This document shows, one piece after another, positions 1 through 21,747 of a stretch of DNA of 64,000 nt. Source of the DNA: Phycomyces blakesleeanus NRRL 1555(-) (lineage: Eukaryota; Mucoromycota; Mucoromycetes; Mucorales; Phycomycetaceae); NCBI RefSeq assembly GCF_001638985.1, contig NW_017265136.1, positions 1,384,726 to 1,448,725 on the forward strand, read 5' to 3'. The notes under the pieces are model-generated. The model did no database searches and was not told the DNA's origin. It saw nothing but the letters and a program-made list of their open reading frames with translations. A program made the translations under genes and the position numbers. Position 1 is the stretch's first letter. The number at the start of each line of letters is the position of its first letter.

Positions 1-1031
1 GATTGCCCTTATATATACATATACATCATTGAGTATAACTCTCGGCGATCTTTTGTCATTGTTAATAAACTTTTTTTTTCTATTTATTTATTTACTTTCT
101 TTATAAAATCAGTATTAACACGAGTGAAAGGATTGTAGTGCAGATACTTATGGTTATGATCTTTATTACGTAGTGATTGGCTTTAAGCAATCTTATTCTT
201 AAACAGAACCAACTATATCAACGTAAAGCCTTGAACCTATAGATATATTATATTAAATTTCTTAATTTAACAGCACAGCTTGTTTTGGCACAAAGAGAGT
301 TGAAATAAAGGATAAACGAATGCTGTATACCTTGAGCTTAAATGTTGTTTGAATAGAAGATCAAATCGATCAAATCAATAAAATTTGTATTGTCATTTTG
401 GAAATAAGAAAATAGAGTTGGCAAGAATTTATTTCCAGGCACGCGGATTCTTTTGTTTGGAGTCCAAGCAATAACAAAAACAAGTGACGGAAGTGTTTGT
501 ACTAATATACGCATGTGTTTCTCTCTTTTGGTATCTCTTTACACAAACACAAACACAAACATATATATTTGTTATACATACTATCTTGGCTTAATTCAAT
601 CCAGACAAATCATAAAGCCAAAAGTAAGCGAACCCAATATGATACTCAATCGAGACTTGACAAAAAAATTCATTCACAACACTTGACCACATGAACAAAG
701 GCTGACTATAGACAACATACGAAAAATTACGCAAACATCATCATCTCACGTGGAGTAGAAGACACTCCTGTTTTGTAATTAATAGTCTCTCATCCCAAAG
801 GTTATTTCGAGTTCAATTTAAAGGACAAAAAAATAAGGAAACCCAAACCGGAAAAAGGTCGAATAAAAGTATACTTCTTCTAAATAAAAAGTACCGTAAT
901 ATCAATGGCCTAAATCCAAGGAAAATATATACATATAAAGAGAGATCAACCTTTAATATAAATACATACATGCATGCATACATACAAAGTTAAATCATAA
1001 AAGCGAATATTTTACAATACAATCCATTCAT
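1..1031. other. Intergenic, no gene seen
   Basis: AT-rich sequence 3' of the CHY zinc-finger gene, which is transcribed toward it. Short open frames, such as the one at 453-686, have low-complexity composition and no recognisable motif. I see no RNA gene or repeat worth naming. Confidence 0.6.
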
Positions 1032-3572
1032 TCATCCTACGCGATCTTGTTTTCTGGATTGAACCTTTTGAGTTCCTTTATGTTTTCGGGTATCCTTTCT
1101 GCTCATTTTGGTCTTGTCACGCATCCCTTGACCACCTTCCCAAAATGCTCCCTTGTGTTGGTCAGGCTCAAATGCATGATTGCACCCAGTACATAGTGGC
1201 ATAATAGCTTGTTCGCGAGAACACATGCCACAAACATGGCGCTGAGCATATGTGTAAGGATGATCTTGGTCTAAATCATGGCACGTATTGCAAGGATAAA
1301 GCTTCTGGCAGCACGGAAAACGGAACCATCGTTTTGATTTACGATAGTGGGAGCATCTTCCTTTGTCCGGAAGGGGTTGCCCGCAAACCTTTGTTTTTAT
1401 AGAACCCTTTTGCTTAAGCTTCATAACCTGTGCTTCGTCTGCCTCAAATTGGCCCTCATCTGTGCCAATCCGGAAGTATCGATGACTCTCATATCCCAGA
1501 CTCATTTTTGTAAAGCATGCAGAACATTGCTGGTTTAAGATACGTGGATCATTAAATTGAGCACAAGTACTTGATTCTGTTAGACACTGGGCACAGGTGG
1601 CAGTAAGAGATAAGGAGACAAGAGAAATAGGACTAAGCTTGACGAGTTGTAGAAGCCCGAGTGTAGATGCATTTGGATGAATGAAATCTACCATATATAT
1701 ATATTTAATTTTTTTTCAGTCATTGGATGGTTACACTTTGATGTGAATACCTGATAGAAATCTTACTCCAACCATGAGGGTGCATGTAGGACATGTTGTC
1801 CAACTTTCACGCTTGGTATTGACTTTTTCTGGCTGAATGTTGTCTATGGCTAGACTTCCCTTACACCGACCACACTTCATTACCATAGAAATAGAAGCAC
1901 AACGAACAAGGGCTACATTTTTGAGGAAAACGTTGTCCAACCTGATTTCTGTTCCTCGTCTAGGAGCAGCTATACTATCATGGGGTATAACAGATTCATT
2001 TCCATCATTTTCTCTTTCCTCACCCTCTTCGTTTCCACACGTGTCGCCGTCTATTGGTTTAGCATTAGGTGGGAGGAGGAGACAGCGGTCGTTAACAACG
2101 ATCACTCGGTTGTCTTTTGTTTCATTGTACAAAATCTCTTTCGGTTTGGGTGTGAGTACTGGCTTTGGTGGTTCTGAAGTTTCTGGTTTTATTTCAGGAT
2201 AAGGTTTGGATGGCGGCAAAAATTGGACCGCATCCCTATATAGGCTTGAGAAGTTGCGATTAAGCCAATTGAGATTTTGAAATAAAGATGCACTCGAATC
2301 TTTAACATAAGCAGAGAACGCATCGACAATTGTACTACATAATAGAAGTATTAAATATAGTATTATCAAACAAGCCAAGCGTAAAGTGTGCTTACATGGC
2401 TCTAAAATTTTCAAGAGAAGGTTTCTGGATTGAGATACTGCATGGCTCAAGCGGATACATGACAGGTACTGAGTATTCTAAGATCAAATTCTCGCCTAGT
2501 TGTTCTTGAACCGAAGGATCAAGATCATTCCATTGTATATGGATGGAGCATACGGTCTGGTGGCCATTTGCCCTAGTAAGAGGGCACAATTATAAGCATA
2601 CTATTTTTAAGGAATATATATATATATACATACTAGGTTAAAACTTACTTTACCACACTGTAAGAAGTACCAAACCTTGTTTGTAATTGGCGCATTTCAT
2701 GATGCCTCCTCTTTGCAGCCTCTTTTCTTTGTTCTGGTGTATAACATGCACTCACAAATATAGCAGCATTGGGGTTTAATGCTTTTGCAGATCTCGATGG
2801 ATTTAGGATATCGTGTTTATTTACAGCCGGCTTTGGGTTTTGTGAAATGGGTAATGGTGTTTTGGGAGATCCTTTTTTTGGATAACTGACGAATCTAATC
2901 GTTGGGGCAGGTGATTTCTGTAAAATCTCTTCCATGTGTTTATCCAACCAATCCATCTGTTGGACAAGACTTATATGAGATGACGCATAATTTTCCTTTG
3001 TAAATGTTTCATAGCCCAATTCTAGATTTCTATAGGAACCATTAATATTCATATTGCTTCTTTTCTTTTTATATATCTATTTAGTCTTGCCTCAAGAATC
3101 CTTTTGGTATATCAGAATTTGTTACTGTTAGACTGCATTGATGAAGAGGATATTTTGTTGGAACCATCAGAAGGATCTCTAGTGCTTCTAGATCAAAAGG
3201 AAAGTCGGGGTCGCTTGGAGGGATCAACAATCTTATCTGAGTGCCTTTCTCTGTTTCACTAAGACACAATGTCAACAAAAAAAAGAAAAGACATCAGTGT
3301 TCGCTGACTTGGCTTGTTATATTATTACGTCGAGGAAAAAGAGCTTTGGTATCGTCTTGAGAGTAGGGCAATCTCAATATGTCTTTCTGAAAGAGTTTGC
3401 CCATTCTTCTGATTCTAATCTCGTAATGAAGACGATTCAATGACCAGTTTTTACGAATTGACGCAGAAAAAAAAAGAAGAATTTGGATTACCAAAACATT
3501 AGGGATTGGCCTAGTCATTGGCAGTCTTTTAAGTTTTGGTTCCGAACTGTTTGTGGCATTAGGTGTCGACAT
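1032..3572 (-). CDS. CHY-type zinc-finger protein with RWD-like regions
   Basis: Seven exons on the minus strand: 3572-3492, 3419-3329, 3250-3091, 3029-2649, 2572-2396, 2334-1751 and 1687-1032. They keep frame throughout and give about 709 aa. The C-terminus holds a CHY zinc finger: CGQPLPDKGRCSHY, then paired Cys/His ending HVCGMCSREQ and a CTGCNHAF knuckle. Before it are two more Cys pairs (MKCGRCKGSL, TTCPTC) and a CAQC/CSAC pair. The N-terminal half carries two RWD-like stretches (PTKYPLHQCSLTV and VPVMYPLEPCSISI). CHY fingers bind zinc and occur in ubiquitin-ligase and mitochondrial import proteins; the role of this long fungal form is not known to me. The intron at 3090-3030 appears to be GC-AG, because a GC donor in good context is the only one that keeps the RWD frame. 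The first two exon junctions are the least certain. Confidence 0.72.
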
Positions 3573-6500
3573 GAAGCCTGTTTTTTTTTCTACTTGTTTA
3601 ATAAGAGTGATTGACCGATGAATAACACTAAAGTAAATGTCAACTAATTCACACTCCGGGTTACAGATGATGTAGTGGTAAAAGGTAATAATAATAATAG
3701 GGAAGTGCTTTGAAATAGTTAGTAGCTTTTACAAGGTCATCGTCATCTTACCAATATGATGTTCTAAGGCTTCTTTAGTTTTTATTTTATGTTTTGGATA
3801 TTAATATATTGAACTGATAGCACGTTTTGATGAGGGGATTTTCTTTTAAAAATATATATATAAATATAAATAAATAATGATAGTAATTCTAATGGATTCG
3901 AGTGGAAATAAGAAGTGGAAAACTTGCTTGATTACAAAATTACAAAATAGAAGCACAAAAATAAGCTACTGACTCTGCACAACTTCAATATAATTTTATC
4001 AACCCTTAACACGAAGCAAACAAACAAACAAAAATGCAATTGAGATTTGTTAAACAAAAGAAAACGAACAATTAGCTAAAGAGCCTTTGAGCGTAAAGAG
4101 ATGCGTGTTTTTTTTGGGTACGAAACTAAATATGATATTTATTGAGAGTAACGAAGGATTATATTTATACAACAGCATGTCATGTGCTGTTACTGCGGTA
4201 AGTGCTCTCCTCAATGTCATGGTTTTATGAGAGAATGGTTAGACCAGATATTGAGAGGCCGGTGAGCCATGTATTACAGCACAACACAGATTAAATATAT
4301 ATATACACATTCTTGTTTTCTACCCTGCAGTATCTCCTTTGACTTGCTTTTCAATACAACTCGAAAATTTTGTAAAAAAAAAAGTCGTTACATATTTTTG
4401 TGAAAGGCATTGCTATTAATTTACAATATTTGATAGTCTCCTATTTATTGGGACAAACCTTCAATAAATTAAGGATGTCTATTAATATCTAGTATTGAGT
4501 TTAATAGGACATTATGGGGGTTTCAATCATATATACATTTTAAAAGATGTGCCTGATAAATAAAAAGAAAGCATAGGCTCTTACTTTTAAGGACTGTGTT
4601 ATCAAATTGTTAGTATACCATTTGGTATGGTTAACCAACCTGACCTTCTTGTAATTTTCTTAATCTTTAATGATCTAACTAAATGAGCAAAATAATAATA
4701 ATATTGACCACTTGGCTTATGAAAAAACAACATACTAATCATCGTATTTCTTTTTATTACACGTAGATTCCTAGCCTTGTTGATGGGACAATGTGAGAGG
4801 GTTAGATATAAAGTAGTCTTAAGCATATGCATATATGTATATATACTTAAATTTGGATATTTATTAAGGCTACACCCACATTCCAATGTCAAGTTTTATT
4901 CTTTATTCTTACTATTTCCGTTAATTGTGATGCCACATCTCTCTTGGAATAAAAAGATGTGGGTTACTATATATACATAGATGCTCTCGTAATCTGCAGG
5001 TACCAATGCAAGCGACTGTACTAATTGTACATCTCGTATTATCGGCATGCAAATGCGCTACTGTCTAGGGGTTATGTGGTCTTGGTAACCTTAATATATA
5101 TTTTTCCAACCTACAATTCATTTGAAACAAAGTTTATTTTAACCCATTATCAAAAATAGGTTTTTCTTATATACATATGACGTTAACAGATTAGGTAGCA
5201 CAACAAACTATTTTAAAAAGTTGTATTACATGAAAACATCTGTGATGGTAACGTTTTATGCGGGGGTCTTTTTAATTCCATGATCCTAACGACGACTGTT
5301 CAAAAAATACAAATCTCCTCGGCCTCAAGAATATTTCATAGTGCTTTATGATGAAATATTAAATCATATCTATGAATTATGGGTATAAAGAACAGAATCA
5401 AAAAGAAAATAGTAAGTAGAGGCTTGTAATCTAGAAGAAACCCTATAGAATAGTTTACCATGTTTAGTTAGATATGTTATATATAGCACTGCTCACTCTT
5501 GGAAAAAAAATAAAAACCTTTTGTTCTGTTTAAGCATTCTATTAGTTATATATACTTTTAGTCATCAAATAAATACCTACATATATAAGAGACCTATTAC
5601 AGCTGGATACAGACTAATAAAGACAAGCTTGTATTAATGGTATATCTCCCGAACAATACATCGTGTTGTGTTATAATACTCTTTGAAAGTTTTCCTTTAT
5701 AAGAAAAGATATAGAAAGAATACAAGAATACATTAGATATGATTATATCTTTAATCTTCAGAGTCTGTTGTAATATGTTGATAAAAATAGACTTGAAGGT
5801 ATGTTGGATCTGTAGGGTATGTTCGTCCTTTCTTTAAAATCTGAAATTAGGAAAAGTCTCTACTCACCATTACTTGTTTAAAATGATTGTCTGGATTGAA
5901 AACAAATCCTGTTTTAATATTAATATCAAGACACTAAAAGAGACTTTGAACATATCAAACTTGGTAGGTTTATGACGATATTGCCAAAGATGCAACCTTT
6001 TATTTTTACTTTAAAATAATAGTTGTAGTTATAATTATAATGAAAATATCATATAAGCCATTAAATCTATTGTATTTTCATTGATATATAAATTTGTTAC
6101 TTAGAATATTCAGTGCAGCAAACAAGCTGTTATATTATCCAGCAACACTTTGTTATCTAAACTGACCTTAAGATCAAATGTATCTATCATTGGTGCTTCC
6201 TGTCGGTGCAAGAATAACCTTGTTGACTCCAAGATTGTAATGGAAACGGTATTGGAGTGTGGTGAAAGATCGCCAATGTAGTCGATCTTGGGATTGTTAG
6301 TTGTAATCACTTGTCTTTGTCAAGACGAATAAACAGTTGCTTATTAAAGACATAGTATTAATTAATATCTAGATAGTCTACTTTGGTAGGCAATATAATA
6401 AAGGTTTTAAGATATTGGTTAATAGTATTAAATATCGGATGATATTGTGCTGTTAAATTATAGACAGTGAATTTCAGCCACTAGATATGGATCTTTTAAA

Positions 6501-7560
6501 AGATCTGTGTTCTGACGTGCTTTAATGCTAACTTGCAGTGGGGTCTGTTTCTTGATTATATATATATATTAAGGAATTGAAACCTTGACCTGTATTTCAA
6601 AAAAAAAAAGAATAGCCAGATAACTAGCAATATAGTACAATTGAACAAAAAGAAGTTCAGTAAACTTAACAAAAAAAATATCAGAAATCTTATATTTTAT
6701 TAAAAATGCGGAACAGGTGTTTCGATTGAGTCGCGCAGTTTTGTATTCAAGATTTATTAATGACATCAGTATAGAAGATCGTGTAAAAAGTGCCTATTTG
6801 GACTAGTAATGTAAATATAATGCAGGCCAAGCAAAAAAAAAAACTCTAGAAACAAGACATAATAAGGTTGGGTTTCTCGACACGTCTCTTGTGTCTCAGT
6901 TACATATTACATATGTTCCAGAACGTCTAGCCGATACCATATTTTATTTTCATTTGTGACCGATAGTTCTTGTAAGCGTTAGTTGTGACATATATAGTAC
7001 GAATGAAAAAAAAACCTTGTGTTTTTTTTTCTTCTTGCATTGGAACCCCCTCAAGGAGTATTTATGGCAATCAAAAGGTAAAATGACATTGTGTAAGCTG
7101 TCGAGTCAAAGCTTGTGTTGCCTAATTTTCAAACAAAATCAGTCGAATAAAAATCAAATCTACCAGTCAAATACATTAAAAAACGCCTATGATTGGCTCG
7201 CACCTGAAAAAAAAGGTTCAGTCAGGACCATGTGAAGTACCTTTTCGATCTTTATGTTACCAGCCTATAAAAATAGACTTCCATTGATCAGCCAAGAATG
7301 AGCCCTACTTGCGTATATAAAAAGTCACGATCAAAGAATAGCAACAATTTTAACAGAAAAAGACGGGCTGGGGGACTTGCTTGGTAAGCCCGGTCGGGTT
7401 GCAAAAACCCGATTTTAAATTTATGCCTCAAATGCTCTGTTTCTCTTTCTCACCTCTTTATTACTTCTTGTTCCTCTCTTTATTTATATATACATCTATA
7501 GACTCTCTCTTTCTTTCTTTTTCTACCTTTCTATTATTAATAATTAAAATAAATACATTC
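3573..7560. other. Long intergenic region, no gene seen
   Basis: About 4 kb of AT-rich DNA between the divergently transcribed CHY and two-finger GATA genes. It contains poly-A/T runs and TA-repeats. A minus-strand frame at 6310-6110 has a fairly protein-like composition (for example DYIGDLSPHSNTVSITILES), but it has no convincing partners or family. The last 180 bp before the GATA start are a CT-rich leader that is open in the gene's frame. An in-frame ATG at 7423 lies in that leader, but its translation is low-complexity. Confidence 0.5.
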
Positions 7561-9734
7561 ATGGCGCCTATTGTGCTGAAAATCAAAGGCAATGAGTCCT
7601 TCTCGCCATTCTCTAATCTCCATTCTGGAGATGATCTCTCAAAGACTTGGCGAGTGTGCACAAAAGTGAAAGATTCATTAGAAAATGGCTCTCGCTTGGA
7701 AAACTTGTCTTGGCGTCTATGGTTTCTTCATAATGTGCTTGTAGGAGACCCCAAAGCCAAGTCCAACTTCAAACGCATATCCTCAAACGCCACACACAAA
7801 CTGGAAAGCGAAAAGGGTTCAAGCTTGAACCAACTACGAGAAAAAAGTAGACCAAATAAAAAAAAGCAGGAAAAAGCTATAGAACATTTAGATAGCAACG
7901 TAAGCCCAACCACGACCACAGCCAAGAAAACAAAAAAGACATACACTCAACCAGAAAGTCAGCCTAAGCCGCCACACCTGGACACTACAGCTGACATTCC
8001 CTCGCTTGGTAACCCCAACCAATATGGCGGTATCTTGGACTACACATGCTCATCTCAAAACGCACCTCCTGTTTCCAATACCAATGACACCAATGCATAT
8101 CCACAAACGTCATACGCCGATCCTTCTAGCTACTTGTCTGAACCATCGATTATGGATAGACCAGTAACTGAGAATTTTGTACTCCATCAATATACGTCTG
8201 ACCAAGCTCGCGATCAGGTAGTAGAGCTTGAGAATATATTTGGATCATTTGGGGATATGCAGGCTTTTATGAACCCAATACCGGGAGAGATGCCGATGGT
8301 TGAAATGGATTTAGATACTATGATGGATGAACCCTCATGGCAGCAGTATTCACAGCCTAATTACACTCCCCAAGTTCCTCTCTACTCACTCAATTCGTAT
8401 TCGTATCCCAACTCGCTCTACGACCCAACACAAAATCAACTGTCGCACCAGATCCCGTCCGAGAACTACACAGCATCCTATCAGCCCATAACAACCACAT
8501 CTGTTGAAGCAGAGCCAACAACATCCCCTCCCGCTTCCCCTCCCCTCCCTCCCCCTCCTGCTCCTCCTTCTATTTCTCAAACAGTGCTACCGACTTCTTC
8601 TCCAACAACACTTCCGATAAGTCACGGCGATGGTTCATCAGCTTATTATGTGACTTATTCAGACAGCATGCCGCCCCTTCCAACTGGGACGCTCAGAAAC
8701 AAGCTTTTAGCATCTCTCCCACGAAAAACATTGGCGTCTGCCGAACGATTACTTTCTCCGGCAGCACAGTCAGCAAAGAATATTAAGAGCGGTAAACGTG
8801 GAATCCCATCCGAGGTAGCGGCTGCCAGTTCAGGACCGGCTCCCGCATCCTTGGTAAAAAATCCTTCCCAGAGATTTACCAATGGCCCAGACCAGGCCAC
8901 GGGTCAATTCAACGCAGCACCACAAACAGCGGAATACCTACCCACCAAATTTGAATCGCACACAGAGCCCAATCGCCAAAAAACCCCTCCAAAAACTATG
9001 CGCCCCATGGCCGTCAATAGCACGCCTTCCGAGGGAAAGCCGCCTATTTGCAGCAACTGTGATACTACATCAACACCACTATGGCGACGTTCTGTTCAGG
9101 ATGAGTTGCTTTGCAATGCCTGTGGCTTATAGTGAGTCTTTCTTAAAACAGTCCGCTGTGTATGTGTATATGGACTAAGAAACTCATCTTCCTTGTTAGT
9201 CTGAAACTTCACAATGCACCTCGCCCAAAACATTTAAAACCCCATTCTATAAGGAAAGACTCACGCGGAGAAGAGGATTTGATACAACCAGTATGCTCTA
9301 ATTGTAAAACCAATACAACTCCTCTTTGGCGCCGTGATATAGAAGGTCAATCGTTATGTAACGCATGTGGGCTCTAGTAAGTATACTACGTGATAATGAA
9401 TGTTATTTACAAAAGTTAATTATGTATTCTACTATAACAAAGTCTTAAGCTCCACCATGAGAAGAGACCTCTTTCGATGAAGACAGACATCATAAAAAAA
9501 CGCCAGCGATGCGAAAACCAAAATCAACAAACAGGCAAAAAACCGTCAAAGAAGGGACGTTCAGAAAGTCAGGAACAAGATGAGGAAATAACACTAGAAA
9601 TTACCACCAGTGTCTGGCAAAACAATACAATTCAACAGTACAGTAACCCTTATATTTACAGTAGTAACAACAAAGATAAAGCATCTTATCGACAAAAGAA
9701 TAATGGGCGCGATGAACTAGTGATAAGCCGATAG
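7561..9734 (+). CDS. Two-finger GATA transcription factor with DUF1752 N-terminus
   Basis: Exons 7561-9131, 9200-9376 and 9443-9734 give about 679 aa. The N-terminus has the conserved block [10 protein letters not shown]...[13 protein letters not shown] (DUF1752, the N-terminal domain of AreA/Gat1-type nitrogen activators). A long Ser/Pro/Gln-rich middle follows, with a poly-Pro stretch near 8530-8560. Two GATA fingers of the C-x2-C-x17-C-x2-C type come next: residues about 497-521 ([14 protein letters not shown]) and about 556-580 ([14 protein letters not shown]), about 34 residues apart. Introns split each finger at the same place, after CNACGL within the Tyr codon. A basic tail ([18 protein letters not shown]) completes the DNA-binding region. 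Fungal two-finger GATA proteins known to me are mostly iron/siderophore repressors with a Cys-rich linker; that linker is absent here. I infer a nitrogen-type regulator. The start at 7561 was chosen because family homology begins there. Confidence 0.88.
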
Positions 9735-13689: not shown

Positions 13690-14364
13690 CATAGTTTACA
13701 GTGTTTCTACTTGAGATTGAGACAAATTGAGAAATGTTATAGATGAATCAAAATGTAATTGTATACAATATACTTGCCATTTGTGAACGAAACGAAAATG
13801 GAATTTAAATAGAGAGAAATTATTTTTCAGGCAAACAGACATTGATACTTTGATATTTACCGGTAATTATCTATCTGTCTCAAAGAGACAAATTGTTTAC
13901 TTTACAGCAATTGTATTGTTATTGTTATTGCTATTGTTACTGCTGGATGCTTGTTTTTGTTTGCTTGCCTTTATCAGATCTTTGGAAAGCAGTTGGTAGA
14001 CTGGTTCCTCTCCAAGTTGACAAAACAGTTGCCATCAAATTTTCGCAGCATTAACATCTCGCTGCCACAGTGTATTACAGGTTCTACAGGCCAGTAAAGA
14101 AAGGGCAACTTTGGATCGTCAAAAATTTCAAATATTCTTTTATAAAGTAATCACAACTTGAACATTTCTTTTTTACCCGTATTCAATCCTCGGTGTAGCT
14201 AATATACACCATATATAATGTTTTCCGAAGTCTAACCGCTGAAGGTATTCTTAACGAATCTGAGCACTTGTACAGAAGTAGAAACACAAAATTCAAAAGT
14301 CTAACTGCTTTCCAAAGATCTGATAAAAGTAAGCAAACAGGCAGCAATAATCACAACAATAACG
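13690..14364. repeat. Diverged extra copy of the palindrome's end sequence
   Basis: The segment at about 13695-13990 runs in the same orientation as the right end of the palindrome (about 16845-17020). Shared blocks occur in the same order: acttgagattgagacaaa-like, tctcaaagag-like, a cag preceded by T-rich sequence, then TTGTTA/TTGCTA repeats. Between about 13975 and 14340 there is a second, imperfect inverted pair: a tttatcagatctttggaaag block at 13970-13989 and its reverse complement near 14308-14327. This looks like an older relative of the element that built the palindrome. Confidence 0.55.
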
Positions 14365-14929
14365 ATAATAATCTAGTCACTGTAACATAAAAAGTTTGGC
14401 TCTTTGAGATGTTTAAACAATTACAGGTAAAGTGCCTAAATAACTATCTACTTTGTCTGAAAACTAACTTTTCTTTGTTGAAACATTCCCAAATTTGTCT
14501 CAATCTCGAGTAGAAGCACTGTATTATTTTCTTACTTATGCGAAACTTTCGAAATAGATTTCTGGTAGATGTATCATGTACTAATTATTATTATTAAGCA
14601 AATAGTATTAGATAATGTAAAGTAAGATGGAAGGGAGGGGAGGTCATAGTGTTTGTCTCTTCAAACGATAGAAATATGTATTCGGCATGCGACCTCAACT
14701 AAAAGTCTTAAATATAGCAATATTTAGTAGCAATAAACTCGTCTATAAATATAAAAGGTAACCAATGTAAGAAGTGTGCATTTACTGAAAATGTGACAAG
14801 TTGTTTTATTACTAGCATATATATATATTCTTTTATAGCTTTATACGCATATCTATGTTTTGTAAATAGCCAAGTACAAGGATAATACGTGTTTAGAGAG
14901 AATGTTTATATATTTGTTTATTTATTTAT

Positions 14930-15029
14930 NNNNNNNNNNNNNNNNNNNNNNNNNNNNNNNNNNNNNNNNNNNNNNNNNNNNNNNNNNNNNNNNNNNNNNN
15001 NNNNNNNNNNNNNNNNNNNNNNNNNNNNN
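14930..15029. other. Assembly gap (100 N)
   Basis: Exactly 100 N, the conventional length for a scaffold gap of unknown size. It lies inside the left palindrome arm, where a short-read assembler would be expected to fail. Symmetry predicts about 839 bp of missing sequence, the reverse complement of 15596-16434. Confidence 0.95.
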
Positions 15030-15384
15030 AAAATATGTTCAGGTTAGCTTATGACACCGAATGGGACGTATTCGAGCTGGCTTTAACACGCTGGTGGTCT
15101 TTACATTCGTTACTTACCTGGTGTAAACGTAAACTGGCCTAAAGGAAGGGAAATACAAATAAACAGACGCGTATGCCCTTGAAATAATTCTTTCCTACGC
15201 CAATATAGATGACATCATCATCTATTTGTGATGCAAGCATTCTTAGCCACTGTGAGAAAAAAGGTGCGCTTCAGGGGGTAATTTTAAAAAAATCACATGC
15301 GTTTTACACAATCGCCCTCTGAAACACCCCCTTTTTACCGTAGTGGTTATTTTGGTCTAATAAATTCTCTCACAGTGGCTAAGA

Positions 15385-16192
15385 ATGCTTGCATCACAAA
15401 TAGATGATGATGTCATCTATATTGGCGTAGGAAAGAATTATTTCAAGGGCATACGCGTCTGTTTATTTGTATTTCCCTTCCTTTAGGCCAGTTTACGTTT
15501 ACACCAGGTAAGTAACGAATGTAAAGACCACCAGCGTGTTAAAGCCAGCTCGAATACGTCCCATTCGGTGTCATAAGCTAACCTGAACATATTTTCGCCT
15601 TTTTCTTTTTTAAAGAGGCGCTCCATATTTTCAACTTTGGCAGATTCAAGAAAACGAGTGAATGGCTAATGCTACCAACCTCATGCGCATTACTCTTGAA
15701 CAAGATCTAACTTTTTATTTGTTATTTACAATAGACTGACAGCAAGAAATAGTCAGAAGCCTAGAAAACACTCCTGTTCTTGTTCTTGTGTGCAAAAATC
15801 TGCTGCTAATCTCCATGCTTACTACTTATCAATTTGACATGAAAAGATATTAACGTGTTTTGTCTGCATAATTTTTTTTTCAAAAATAAAATAGCGGTCC
15901 AGCGGGCGAGTTCATTAGAGTACGCGAGTACTTTGGTGAGCTCCTTAATCGGTGAGTAATCGTTCTAAAACATAAGCTAAAGCAAAACATCTCAGCATTT
16001 TATCTTGTTCTTATTTTGTATATAACGAGGTTCAAGCCAACAGGTTAACCTTCGGGACCCTGACTGAGCTCTGGTGGTGTCCAGGATTCTGAGTACGAGG
16101 CCGAGGGTTTCAAGGCATTGCGCCAACTTCTTTTTTTGATGCTTAGTCGTCCTTCATCTCGGTGTTGTGCTGATCCACCGGATGTCGTATAA
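15385..16192 (+). other. Gene-like, possibly spliced sequence inside the palindrome arm
   Basis: Not recognised. The arm shows good splice signals and open exons. A pyrimidine tract and cttag lead to a small exon at 15487-15507 followed by a gtaagt donor. A strong pyrimidine tract and aaag lead to 15616-15710, which in the joined frame reads TPEALHIFNFGRFKKTSEWL and ends at a stop. An acceptor near 15894 opens a segment reading AGEFIRVREYFGELLNR up to a gtgagt donor at 15952. A last open stretch, about 16060-16192, reads VQDSEYEAEGFKALRQLL and ends in a stop. I could not join all segments in one frame, so this may be a decayed gene or captured exons. By symmetry a second copy lies on the opposite strand, mostly inside the gap. 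Confidence 0.35.
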
Positions 16193-16999
16193 GTGAGATG
16201 TCCCCAACTTCGTACTGTGTTTTTAGTTAGTTTTTTTTCTCGTTGGGTCCGTTTTTTTCTGCGTGTTTGTTTTTGCAGGTACGTACTTTTATATTTCTTT
16301 CTTTCTTTCTTTTTTATTACAGCAGATTTTGAAGCACAAGAACAAGATGTGGAGCACCGATGGGCCTTCCCTGGATAGGCATTTAGGATTTACCGACTGG
16401 AATTATATATATACCTAATATTTACCTTCAATAAATAAATAAATAAACAAATATATAAACATTCTCTCTAAACACGTATTATCCTTGTACTTGGCTATTT
16501 ACAAAACATAGATATGCGTATAAAGCTATAAAAGAATATATATATATGCTAGTAATAAAACAACTTGTCACATTTTCAGTAAATGCACACTTCTTACATT
16601 GGTTACCTTTTATATTTATAGACGAGTTTATTGCTACTAAATATTGCTATATTTAAGACTTTTAGTTGAGGTCGCATGCCGAATACATATTTCTATCGTT
16701 TGAAGAGACAAACACTATGACCTCCCCTCCCTTCCATCTTACTTTACATTATCTAATACTATTTGCTTAATAATAATAATTAGTACATGATACATCTACC
16801 AGAAATCTATTTCGAAAGTTTCGCATAAGTAAGAAAATAATACAGTGCTTCTACTCGAGATTGAGACAAATTTGGGAATGTTTCAACAAAGAAAAGTTAG
16901 TTTTCAGACAAAGTAGATAGTTATTTAGGCACTTTACCTGTAATTGTTTAAACATCTCAAAGAGCCAAACTTTTTATGTTACAGTGACTAGATTATTAT

Positions 17000-19308
17000 T
17001 GCTGTTGCTATCGCTACTTTTACTGGGACGACGTTTCCTAGTTGGGGACGACATTTTGATTATATTGGGCCACAAATTGTGGCCTTGTTCCTGGCATGGA
17101 ATAATTATATCTGGTCCATAAGGCTACAGAATATTTGTATCATTTTTTGTACTTTGCGAAAAATAAATAAAAATAAAAGGGTGGGTGGGAATTAACATCT
17201 GGTGTTTCTAGGCTCTGGTAATATATATGTGAAAGAAAGACAAAGGCACTATACGCGTAAAAAGGCCAATACATAGTAGAATATCCAACAAGATTGAGTC
17301 ACAATTTAATTACAGTAATTTCTTATAGTCTTTTGCATAAATGGCTATTGATATAGTGTATTTGCGATTAATTATTATTATCTCTTTATTGTCAATCCTG
17401 AATTTAGGGCTACTAATTGAATATACTGGATTTTTCTTTGGATGAGACATTTTATTATTAAATTGCCCAAAGTCGGACTGTAACTCTTAAAAGAAGGAGA
17501 GATATTTGCCTGAAGAGAGATCGCTGAACACACAAAGTGTGAAGATAAAGTAGTAAGCTAATACATACAATGAATGTGTTGTATTTTTTCAAGAGACACT
17601 ATTCTGCCCTGAAGGATTAGAGAAAGACACCGGGCCCCGGACAAGTAGTCACAATTAATTGGCCCAGTTAGATAGAAATGTCGTGCCCGTAAGATTTCTG
17701 GTTAAATGAATAAGGTTGATGCTGTGATATCAATTATAGGGTATCAAAACCCTAATATATTCTACCGAAAGACTTGCCTTTTTAATATATAAAATAAAAT
17801 ATAAAATGCTAATTACACCGTAAAAAACCTTCAATATATATATATATTTACTCTGATTTGCAATTAAACATTTTTATTTGTATTTTACATAATTCAGTTA
17901 CAAGAGCTGCCTAGAAGATATATGTGATCAATACATTTCATTTAGCTTATTGATTTGACAATTTTTGCTTCTTAGTTTTTTCTTGTATACAAACAACAAA
18001 ATGATACAGAAAACGGGGCAGAATGTGCACCAACTTTTATATGGTATAGTATGTGCAAGTTAAATGACCGATAACATCTATGTTATGTTATTTATAATAG
18101 AGCCATGATGTATCTATTATTCCATAATTGAACCAAGAAGGATTTCCAGAAAAACAACATAAAAATAAGGTATTGTTATGAACGAGGGTTAATTTTGTTT
18201 AGATATGTGCATTCTCTAGTAGCTTGTACACCACGTTCTAGTGCTTAATATTTATCTCATCAGTTAATCTTTTTTTTGTTGGTTTTGGGAACAAATGAGA
18301 GATATGATAAGGAGGATCTTGGATTCTTATCTAACTTTGTCCTTCCATTTGATTGAATAATAAACAAGAAGAGAAGAACGTCAAACAAACAAACAAGCTT
18401 TGAGATTGTGCATGGAGCTATTAGGTTCAGTAACTTTAAAAATAAAGCACAGAAGTTACTAAAATATTACCTATGACTCTTGAATATGTGTGCACAGATG
18501 ATTCAAACAAGAGAATAACGACTGACAGCCATATCTGTTTATTTAGCCTAGAGTTACACAGAATGAACCCCACATACAAGACTGCTGATGGTGGGAGGGC
18601 TTTTGTTGTTCGTCGGATAAGTATTAATTTGCAAAACATTAACTGATCTTTAAGGATTTGCTTAGATATCTTTCTCCAATAAAATATAGGTATAATTTAT
18701 AGATGAGTCATGTTACGCAAGAAAAGATATAGGTGATCTAACGACAAGGCAGACAAGTCCTGGTTCCAAGGTCCTCACGCCGATCCTTGGGACGATAGAA
18801 TGAGATGGCGTGGTTTATCTGTAGAGATAAGATAACCCCAATCGAGATGAAATACAGAAACAGTAAATTAAACTTGAGCTCTGTCCGGGTCATAGAAGGG
18901 GTCATTTCCTTATCTCTGTGTGCTATCGGAGATCCTCGCGATGTTGAGTTGCATGGCCGCTTCTATAGCAGCTGTAACAAAAAAAAGAGTATAACGGTCT
19001 TGGTGGTGAGGTGTTAAAGGTCTTTATATACCACCAACAAACAATCGATAGAATATTATCCAATCAAAAATCATCTATTAATCAAGCGCCGATCCACTAA
19101 CCTTCATCCTTACACTTAAAATCCTAAAGAAGCAAAAGCATAATCCTATGAGTCAGCTTCACTTGAAGGTAAAGTCCAGTCCAGTCCAGTCCAGCCGATA
19201 GCGGGGATTCTTCGTTATCTTTTTTAAAAAACGCAGTCCGCATTTATATTTATGCCCCCTCTCTTTCTACACCGATTCAAGCTTGTTTCTTCATCTCCTG
19301 CATAAACA
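17000..19308. other. Intergenic: right flank of the palindrome and glutamine synthetase promoter
   Basis: AT-rich with no convincing coding sequence; the frames at 18436-18639 and 18805-19017 lack family features. The last 500 bp before the glutamine synthetase start carry clustered GATA motifs (listed separately). A four-unit AGTCC repeat occupies 19173-19192. Confidence 0.5.
18815..19220. promoter_or_regulatory. GATA-factor binding sites upstream of glutamine synthetase
   Basis: TTATCT at 18815-18820 is followed by GATAAGATAA at 18826-18835. That is three GATA cores within 21 bp, one on the opposite strand. More TTATCT sites lie at about 18910-18915 and 19215-19220. Paired HGATAR sites are the classic targets of fungal nitrogen GATA factors (AreA/Gat1 and their repressors). 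Their position, 90-500 bp before a glutamine synthetase start, makes nitrogen control plausible. Sequence presence is direct; function is inferred. Confidence 0.5.
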
Positions 19309-21747
19309 ATGGCCCACGAAGCTCGTCTTAACACTGTCGTCGAGAGTCTCACCAGAGCTCCTCGCAACGTCCAATTCCCCGTCAAGAATGGCCGTCTGCA
19401 GTCAATTTCCGAGATTTTTGGTGAGAATGTCTTCTCTCTCAAGGAAATGTCAAAGATGCTCCCCAAGCCCGTCTTCAAGAAGTTCACCGAACAATTGAAG
19501 GGTGGTCGCAGCATGGACAAGCCTACCGCCGATGCCATTGCTCACGCAGTTAAGGTCTGGTCTATTGAGCGCGGTGCTACCCACTTCACCCACTGGTTCC
19601 AGCCTTTGAACGACTCCACTGCCGAAAAGCACGATGCTTTCTTGACAATGAAAACTAGCTACGCTAATGGATTCGAGGAGGTAAGATATAAGCAAAACGG
19701 CATACATCATTGGTTCCGCGACTTATTCACACTATACTAGACCACTGCCATCGATACCTTCTCTGGATCCCAGTTGTTGCAGTCTGAGCCAGACGCTTCT
19801 TCTTTCCCCTCCGGTGGTATGCGTACTACTTTTGAGGCACGTGGTTACACTGTTTGGGATACCAAGAGGTATGTAACCTTGGATACACTCGTATAAGCAT
19901 ACTAACTTATTATACTTTAGCCCTATGTTTATTCAGGATGGTCCTCATGGTACCTCGATCCTCTATATTCCATCCGTCTTTATTTCTTACAACGGTGAGG
20001 CTCTTGATGAGAAGTCCGTCCTCCTGAGATCCTCTGAAATCATGATCAAGACCACTCTTGAGTTTCTCAACTTGATTGAGCCCGCTGATGATGAAGGTAT
20101 GTTGTGGATACGATTAAGGGGTAAATTTTGGTTATTTACCGGTGCGCCACAGATCATCCTCGCGCCAAGCATGTCTACACTACTCTCGGTACCGAGCAAG
20201 AATTCTTCTTCATTGACCGCGCTCTCTATACCCTCCGTCCCGATCTCAAGATTGCTGGCCGTACCCTTCTTGGTGGTCTCCCCCCTCGTCACCAGCAGTT
20301 GGAGGACCACTACTTTGGTAAGATCCCCACTCGTGTCTTGGCTGCCATTAGTGAGTGTGAGTTCGAGCTTGCCAGACTTGGTGTCCCCATCAAGACTCGT
20401 CACAATGAAGTAGCCCCTGCCCAGTTCGAGGTTGCTCCTATCTTTGAGGAGTCTATGCTCTCTGTTGATCACAACTTGTTGACCATGGATGTTCTCCACC
20501 GTGTTGCCCATCGCCACAAGCTCAAGGTTCTCTTCCACGAGAAGCCTTTCCGTGGTGTCAACGGTTCCGGCAAGCACTGCAACTGGTCTTGTGCCACTGA
20601 CCAGGGTGACAACTTGCTCGATCCTTCTGCTACTCCTGAGACCAATTACCGTTTCTTGCTCTTCCTTGTTGCCATCCTTAAGGGTGTCCTCGATCACGGT
20701 GATCTTCTCCGTGCCGGTATTGCCTCGGCTTCTAACGACCACCGTCTCGGTGCCCATGAGGCTCCCCCTGGTATCATCTCCGTCTTCCTCGGAAGCCAGC
20801 TCGATGAGGTCCTCAATGCCATTGAGGAGGGTCGTCCTGTCACCAACTACGATGACGCACACATGAAGAACGTCCGTGTCGACGGTACCGTTCTTGACTT
20901 GAAGGTCGCTGCTCTCCCCAGCATTGCCCGTGATTTGACCGATCGTAACCGTACCTCTCCCTTTGCCTTTACCGGTAACAAGTTCGAGTTCCGCGCCGTC
21001 GGTTCCAAGCAGTCTCCTTCTTTCCCCGTCACTCTTCTCAACTCTGCTGTCGCTTCTGCTCTTCAGGAGGTCAATGCTGCTCTTAAGAAGCAGATGGGTA
21101 AGAAGTCCGTTGCTTCCGATGCCGACAAGCTTGTCGTCATCCGCGAGTTCATCAAAAAGACCAAGGCCATCCGTTTCGAGGGTGATAACTACACTGATGC
21201 CTGGGCCGCTGAAGCTGCCAAGCGTGGTCTTCCCAACATTAGAAAGAGTGTTGATGCCTTTGGCTGCATCTTGAAAAAGGAGAACGCCGATATGTTGAAG
21301 CGTCTTGGCGTCTTCTCCCATGCTGAGCTTGAGTCTCGTGTCCATATCTTGACTGAGAAATATGCTAAGGATGTCACTATTGAGGCTCAGACCTTGTTAA
21401 CCATGGTCACTCAGCAAGTTCTTCCTGCCGCATACCAGTACCGTCGTGAGTTGGCCGAGTCTGCCTCAGCCATGAAGAACATTGGCGTTGAGTCCACACC
21501 CGAAATCGAGCTCTTGAACGAGCTTACTCCTCTCGTCCGCAACCTCCAGCTTCGCACCAACGATCTCAAGAACGTTATGGATGAGATGCTCAAGGTTGAG
21601 GAGCTCCTCCCATTGGCCCATGGCGCACAGAAGAAGGTTATCCCCTGTATGGATGCCGTTCGCTCTCTTGCTGATCAGCTCGAGTGCCTTGTTTCTGACA
21701 AGCTCTGGCCCTTGCCCAAGTACACCGAACTCTTCTTGAACATCTAA
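19309..21747 (+). CDS. Glutamine synthetase, type III (GlnN-like)
   Basis: Exons 19309-19680, 19741-19868, 19921-20096 and 20153-21747 keep phase and give 756 aa, a normal size for GSIII. It makes glutamine from glutamate, ammonium and ATP. GSIII hallmarks are present in order: [74 protein letters not shown] and the C-terminal helices after [11 protein letters not shown]. These differ from the short eukaryotic GSII. The last exon has a strong preference for C-ending codons (gtc, ctc, atc, aag), unlike its neighbours, which points to high expression. GATA sites lie upstream. The codon bias also creates a long, spurious antisense open frame. The call as GSIII is firm. Whether it is a fungal-wide gene or an acquired one cannot be decided without a tree. 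Confidence 0.95.

Follow-up and report, generated by a model that had tools for sequence, protein, structure and literature searches.

A dispersed family of palindromes in the genome of Phycomyces blakesleeanus whose arms are probably kept alike by gene conversion

The window, a stretch of 64,000 nucleotides from contig NW_017265136.1 of Phycomyces blakesleeanus NRRL 1555(-), contains an inverted repeat that is assembled from 14365 to 16999 around a centre at 15258-15367. An AreA-like GATA factor (7381-9132, Pfam match) lies on one side of it and a type III glutamine synthetase (19309-21747, Pfam match) on the other; both are nitrogen-metabolism genes, and the closest protein to the glutamine synthetase (20128-21747), among the best 8000 candidates scored, comes from Phycomyces nitens and is 97% identical. 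The features discussed below are the following.

13697-14523, no strand assigned: element M, MITE-like and complete, with inverted ends; the palindrome end at 14365 lies inside it.
14365-14929, minus strand: outer left arm (arm A), exact reverse complement of 16435-16999.
14930-15029, no strand assigned: gap of 100 N within arm A, predicted to stand for ~839 bp equivalent to 15596-16434, with equal-length segments at three loci.
15030-15257, minus strand: inner left arm (arm A), exact reverse complement of 15368-15595.
15258-15367, no strand assigned: asymmetric centre common to nine palindromes; the A side has a hairpin (~15248-15345) and the B side has none.
15365-16410, plus strand: right-arm (arm B) copy of unit U, oriented outward from the centre and conserved across single copies; extent approximate.
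16018-16435, plus strand: possible short transcription unit within U, read from sequence only, with TATATA near 16020, a possible intron at 16279-16322 and AATAAA at 16430.
16435-16999, plus strand: outer right arm (arm B), exact pair of the left; 16435-16840 is confined to palindrome loci and the single arm L022.
16841-17009, no strand assigned: truncated M at the right palindrome end; end approximate.

A sequence-only reading of the window had reported two exact inverted-repeat pairs, and both are confirmed, the outer over 565 bp and the inner over 228 bp with 0 mismatches in each. At the inner end, the pairing takes in 3 further bases with 1 mismatch among them, at 15367. Chance is ruled out for exact inverted pairs of this length. 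The two pairs bracket the sole N-run of the window, and the earlier calculation that 839 - 100 = 739 is correct as a sum but has no value as evidence for the gap content; it is an algebraic identity that any single gap within one arm yields, so that it gives a predicted length only and no proof. The proposal that the gap conceals ~839 bp is nevertheless supported by other loci, where the equivalent of 15596-16434 is present at equal length on both arms (841/841 bp at 0.776 Mb of contig C5, 838/838 bp at 0.277 Mb of C29 and 833/833 bp at 0.696 Mb of C12). The left arm continues on either side of the gap, where 565 bp connect it to the left flank and 228 bp to the centre, and a missing middle is therefore expected. 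On these comparisons, the gap most likely corresponds to ~839 bp equivalent to 15596-16434, and the reading of the locus as one palindrome of ~3.37 kb, with arms of ~1.63 kb and a centre of ~110 bp, is supported. The equal-length rule is not universal, as one arm of L021, L024 and L029 departs from the shared sequence near 16363-16392 (L044 was left out of the arm set used for these departure points and for the mismatch at 15367). A comparison of 15030-17100 with plasmid records gave no match at the megablast level.

The sequence-only reading had proposed a genome search for other copies of the arm and the centre. Using the centre, the arm and the segment equivalent to the gap as queries, we searched the genome (60 contigs, 53,498,309 bases) and found nine palindromes: the window (C3, 1.400 Mb), L021 (C3, 1.072 Mb), L028 (C3, 2.793 Mb), L023 and L024 (C29, 0.277 and 0.235 Mb), L025 and L026 (C5, 0.776 and 0.370 Mb), and L027 and L029 (C12, 0.696 and 0.249 Mb). 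Each consists of two head-to-head copies of U, a non-coding unit of ~1 kb that is dispersed in the genome. A single arm closely related to the palindrome arms lies at 1.152 Mb of C3 (L022), at least 12 more distant single U copies, some of them partial, make up L041-L052, and weaker U fragments occur on C4, C19 and C24. All copy counts are lower bounds because the searches scored the best candidates only; one match comparison of the fetched loci kept only matches of at least 60 bp. A search covering open-licence papers found no literature describing these palindromes.

The loci L021-L056, 229,636 bases that were selected around these repeats and overlap in part, have N-runs only at three palindromes (L024, L026 and L028) and in L053, itself overlapping with L024. 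After the N-run of L024, positions 5428-6284, in the overlap with L053, hold a third partial arm that repeats the left-arm end at 99.2% and is probably a local misassembly. L028 is a self-palindrome over 1-6407, with arms 1-2134 and 4272-6407 that are 99.86% alike; it passes U and M, takes in an insertion within M and extends to the limit of the sequence retrieved. For 15 of 23 copies (a set that omits L053, L054 and L056), the nearest relative was on the same contig, against a mean of 3.5 under label shuffling, which reached 15 in 0 of 20000 shuffles; L025 and L026, both on C5, were not each other's nearest relatives. Such clustering would fit local transposition, local recombination or local homogenisation alike. 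Reciprocal nearest U copies on one contig, within L027-L054, were mostly in opposite orientation, in too few pairs to carry weight.

The single copies have ~1.03 kb in common, which is equivalent to 15365-16410 and defines U. In 13 of the 17 aligned rows, the mean identity per 25 bp was 0.61-0.92 inside U, 0.29-0.35 immediately ahead of it, apart from one gapped bin at 0, and 0.36-0.60 after it, dropping to 0.14-0.35. We dropped U as a protein gene, as no long conserved open reading frame was found in it and no consistent 3-base pattern was seen across the 13 aligned rows; no parent gene was seen for the diverged fragments L055 and L056. U as a structured RNA was also dropped, given an RNAalifold covariation term of +0.39 and changes on both sides in 6 of 68 pairs. 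In the 12 sequences used for RNAalifold and for the intron motifs (aligned without L050, L052 and L055), the columns TTTGTATAT and CAGGTA of a possible 44-nt GT-AG intron are invariant, and the acceptor is shifted in L051. The TATATA, the possible intron and the AATAAA together suggest a predicted short transcription unit in U.

All nine centres, once oriented, align over their full length, and their A and B sides join at AGTG (15342-15345). The A side is the hairpin-bearing 5' end that is also found, decayed to varying degrees, in the single copies L041-L044 and L046-L048, and the hairpin-free B side resembles L045, L022 and partly L051. One asymmetric centre in nine of nine palindromes argues for descent from one head-to-head pair, and judged by these likenesses, the founding junction inherited by the nine is best fitted by two different U copies placed head to head. 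A microRNA precursor at the centre was considered and rejected since the matches to RF04095 and RF04225 were all below the gathering score. Any hairpin may produce microRNA-precursor matches, and the same RNA-family scan, applied to six loci with single copies, yielded a single match, which was below threshold and lay outside U.

The two arms of a locus are more alike than the age of the arrangement would lead one to expect. In the eight palindromes other than the window, the U arms are 97.2-99.5% identical within a locus and 91.9-95.4% identical between clades over ~816 bp (a comparison made without L044, L049, L050, L051, L052, L053 and the left window arm). Arm identity is at least 99% in four of these eight loci and in the window, which contributes only 793 exact bases (793/793 visible pairs) as its left arm is mostly gap or unread. 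At sites where all arms of the remaining clades agree, 81 clade-specific substitutions were present in both arms (8, 6, 27, 17, 17 and 6 by clade) and 21 in one arm, counted over 8 A and 9 B arms; in these arms, only site 15367 divides all A from all B. The pattern extends outward beyond U. Ten between-clade pairs gave means of 91.6-97.4% over the first 1000 bp and of 71.9-85.4% farther out, and same-locus arms match where loci differ by ~20%. Counted from the inner end in 200-bp bins, the arms of L023 start at 98%, are identical between 200 and 2000 bp and drop to 92.6% in the bin that follows; those of L025 are 96% alike over the first 200 bp and then 100% to 1600 bp; and those of L027 run 98.0, 99.5, 100, 100, 100 and 98.2%. 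The lowered divergence in U between loci could alternatively reflect selective constraint. Counting against a conversion reading, the arms of L028 are 97.2% identical, which is little above the best between-clade value of 95.4%.

Where the arms of a locus do differ, they tend to differ beside the centre. At the eight loci without the window, 63 of 103 substitutions between A and B fall within 200 bp of the inner end, a stretch that accounts for 1597 of the 9577 aligned sites; without L021 and L024, the figure is 54 of 72 substitutions in 1200 of 7569 sites, and the clades are few and related, so that binomial p values for this gradient are indicative only. All 8 differences of L025 lie within 45 bp of the centre, all 15 of L026 within 172 bp and all 23 of L028 within 218 bp. 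Against the gradient, 8 of 14 substitutions in L021 and 14 of 17 in L024 lie beyond 200 bp, and differences also occur near the outer end in L023 (8 of 12) and L027 (3 of 8). Site by site, A and B differ at innermost site 3 in nine of nine loci and at site 9 in six of nine, being alike there in the window, L023 and L024. Sites 15 and 17 differ in four loci (L025, L027, L028 and L029) and are alike in the others, as the A type in the window, L021, L023 and L024 and as the B type in L026.

At two loci, the arms run out into unlike 3' flanks. Beyond ~16392, the A arm of L021 passes into a flank with 8 genome matches: the flank itself, a match on either side of L024, one each at L043, L044 and L051, and two elsewhere. 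The B arm of L029 passes into a flank with 3 genome matches, one to itself and one each at L046 and L047, yet the U of that arm shares 99.5% identity with the partner arm, against 82.8% with L046. In both cases, a palindrome-type U is joined to a flank that it shares with single copies, and the two U copies of the locus thus have separate histories outside U and one sequence inside it. The A flank of L024 is of the same kind as that of L021, in an assembly that is doubtful around the gap. A resemblance between 17216-17700 of the window and the DNA downstream of U in L041 was dropped as flank evidence after a repeat control since 17010-17689, adjoining the right palindrome end, is a common dispersed repeat with at least 49 matches (best 40 of 301 candidates scored). 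Both the L021 flank and the L029 flank passed this control.

M was found on at least 17 contigs (best 40 of 110 candidates scored), and both of its ends, TACAGT...ACTGTA, are present in L030, L031, L034 and L036 among seven loci scanned with up to 3 mismatches; these ends may be a Tc1/mariner-type MITE motif, consistent with a TA target. In the window, the left copy of M is complete and the right one truncated, and hence the palindrome end lies inside M. Compared with L021, the left arm of the window is 98-100% identical per 80-bp bin to ~14450, 88% in the next bin and 58-85% beyond, a break that falls inside and past M and is the same in 200-bp binning. An end inside M may be the end of a conversion tract or the result of recombination between M copies.

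We consider it likely that the palindromes represent an old inverted pair whose arms are homogenised by gene conversion, in preference to the three origins that the sequence-only reading had offered (a very recent duplication, a fold-back mobile element or an assembly inversion). A very recent head-to-head duplication is not supported: the centre is common to nine palindromes and the units are ~5-8% apart between clades, so the inverted arrangement is older than the identity of its arms. Two U copies, A and B, would have been joined head to head through the ~110-bp asymmetric centre, and this one founding pair would have given rise to the at least nine palindromes of this genome by a route to new loci that we can only propose. 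At each locus, one arm would then serve as the template for the other, by recombination or template switching, that is, by gene conversion. Conversion would rarely come within some tens of bases of the centre, whose sides do not match, and old A/B differences would persist there. The tract of matching sequence passes the end of U at several loci, the window among them, crosses ~400 bp of flank and enters M; this makes the palindrome longer than U and would be consistent with outward growth of the converted region.

A bolder form of this reading makes the arrangement selfish. A U pair would overwrite a resident U by ectopic recombination, without a transposase, and its arms would extend into neighbouring DNA, with L029 and L021 as captured junctions. 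We hold this to be possible, though rather doubtful.

Unlikely, in our judgement, is a snap-back duplication of a single U at an AGTG-14 nt-CACT sequence, followed by a central deletion on one side, either once or at each locus. The 5' region of L047 has such an inverted repeat, and the A and B sides of the centre meet at AGTG. A snap-back arising anew at each locus is excluded by the common centre and by the A/B differences common to loci; as a single founding event, it is weakened by the B-side states in the single copies L045 and partly L051 and by the unlike arm flanks at L021 and L029. Even if true, it would still require later homogenisation.

We regard it as distinctly improbable that the palindromes are a non-autonomous fold-back or long-terminal-repeat DNA transposon, perhaps moved by the ends of M, with arms that are alike because the insertions are young. 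Dispersed copies would be expected of such an element, as would the clustering of nearest relatives on their own contigs, which resembles local hopping; M is found at one or both ends of several palindromes, and in L026 both M copies are nearly complete and identical. However, the palindrome ends are variable, inspection by eye of eight pairs of ends (a set without L024 and L028) showed no target duplication, and the arms of L021 and L029 have unlike flanks. A young insertion also leaves unexplained why A/B differences are retained beside the centre and not farther out. An assembly artefact, which would make the left arm a collapsed or misplaced duplicate of the right one, is very improbable despite the identity of the visible arms, the N-runs at three further palindromes and the third partial arm at L024, since the left arm is anchored on both sides of its gap and in five relatives (L021, L023, L025, L027 and L029) the assembly is free of N-runs and the two arms differ slightly.

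Homogenisation of an old pair by conversion would also account for the assembly gaps at several palindrome loci. To our knowledge, arm-to-arm conversion is known chiefly from large gene-bearing palindromes on sex chromosomes, and nine small dispersed palindromes in one fungal genome are natural replicates that record, base by base, how near conversion gets to a non-matching centre and how far outward it reaches. If the reading is true, it can be tested whether the spacer limits conversion, whether conversion enlarges palindromes and whether recombination alone spreads them.

Gene conversion is reported to keep alike the palindromes of the mammalian X chromosome (PMC8981503) and of the willow W chromosome (PMC7023750), and template switching to homogenise short inverted repeats in yeast (PMC8604942). 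The sex-chromosome palindromes resemble the Phycomyces family in having inverted arms, a short spacer and an identity within the palindrome above that expected from its age, and in being recognised by arms that agree where other copies differ (PMC8981503, PMC7023750). Their arms are tens of kilobases long (PMC8981503, PMC7023750), compared to 1-2 kb here, and in contrast to them the Phycomyces family is fungal, has at least nine dispersed copies and carries no recognised protein gene in its arms. The yeast repeats are alike in that one arm templates the other, with identity around a spacer, but they are short (PMC8604942), whereas the Phycomyces tracts exceed 1 kb. Long inverted repeats and dispersed copies are features shared with fold-back transposons such as Tetris (PMC4079207) and Tm1 (PMC3169594). 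Unlike them, the Phycomyces palindromes have inconstant ends, no target duplication that we could see, and unlike arm flanks at two loci. We do not class the Phycomyces palindromes as a fold-back transposon; they work like converted palindromes, but they are small, dispersed, non-coding as tested, and fungal.
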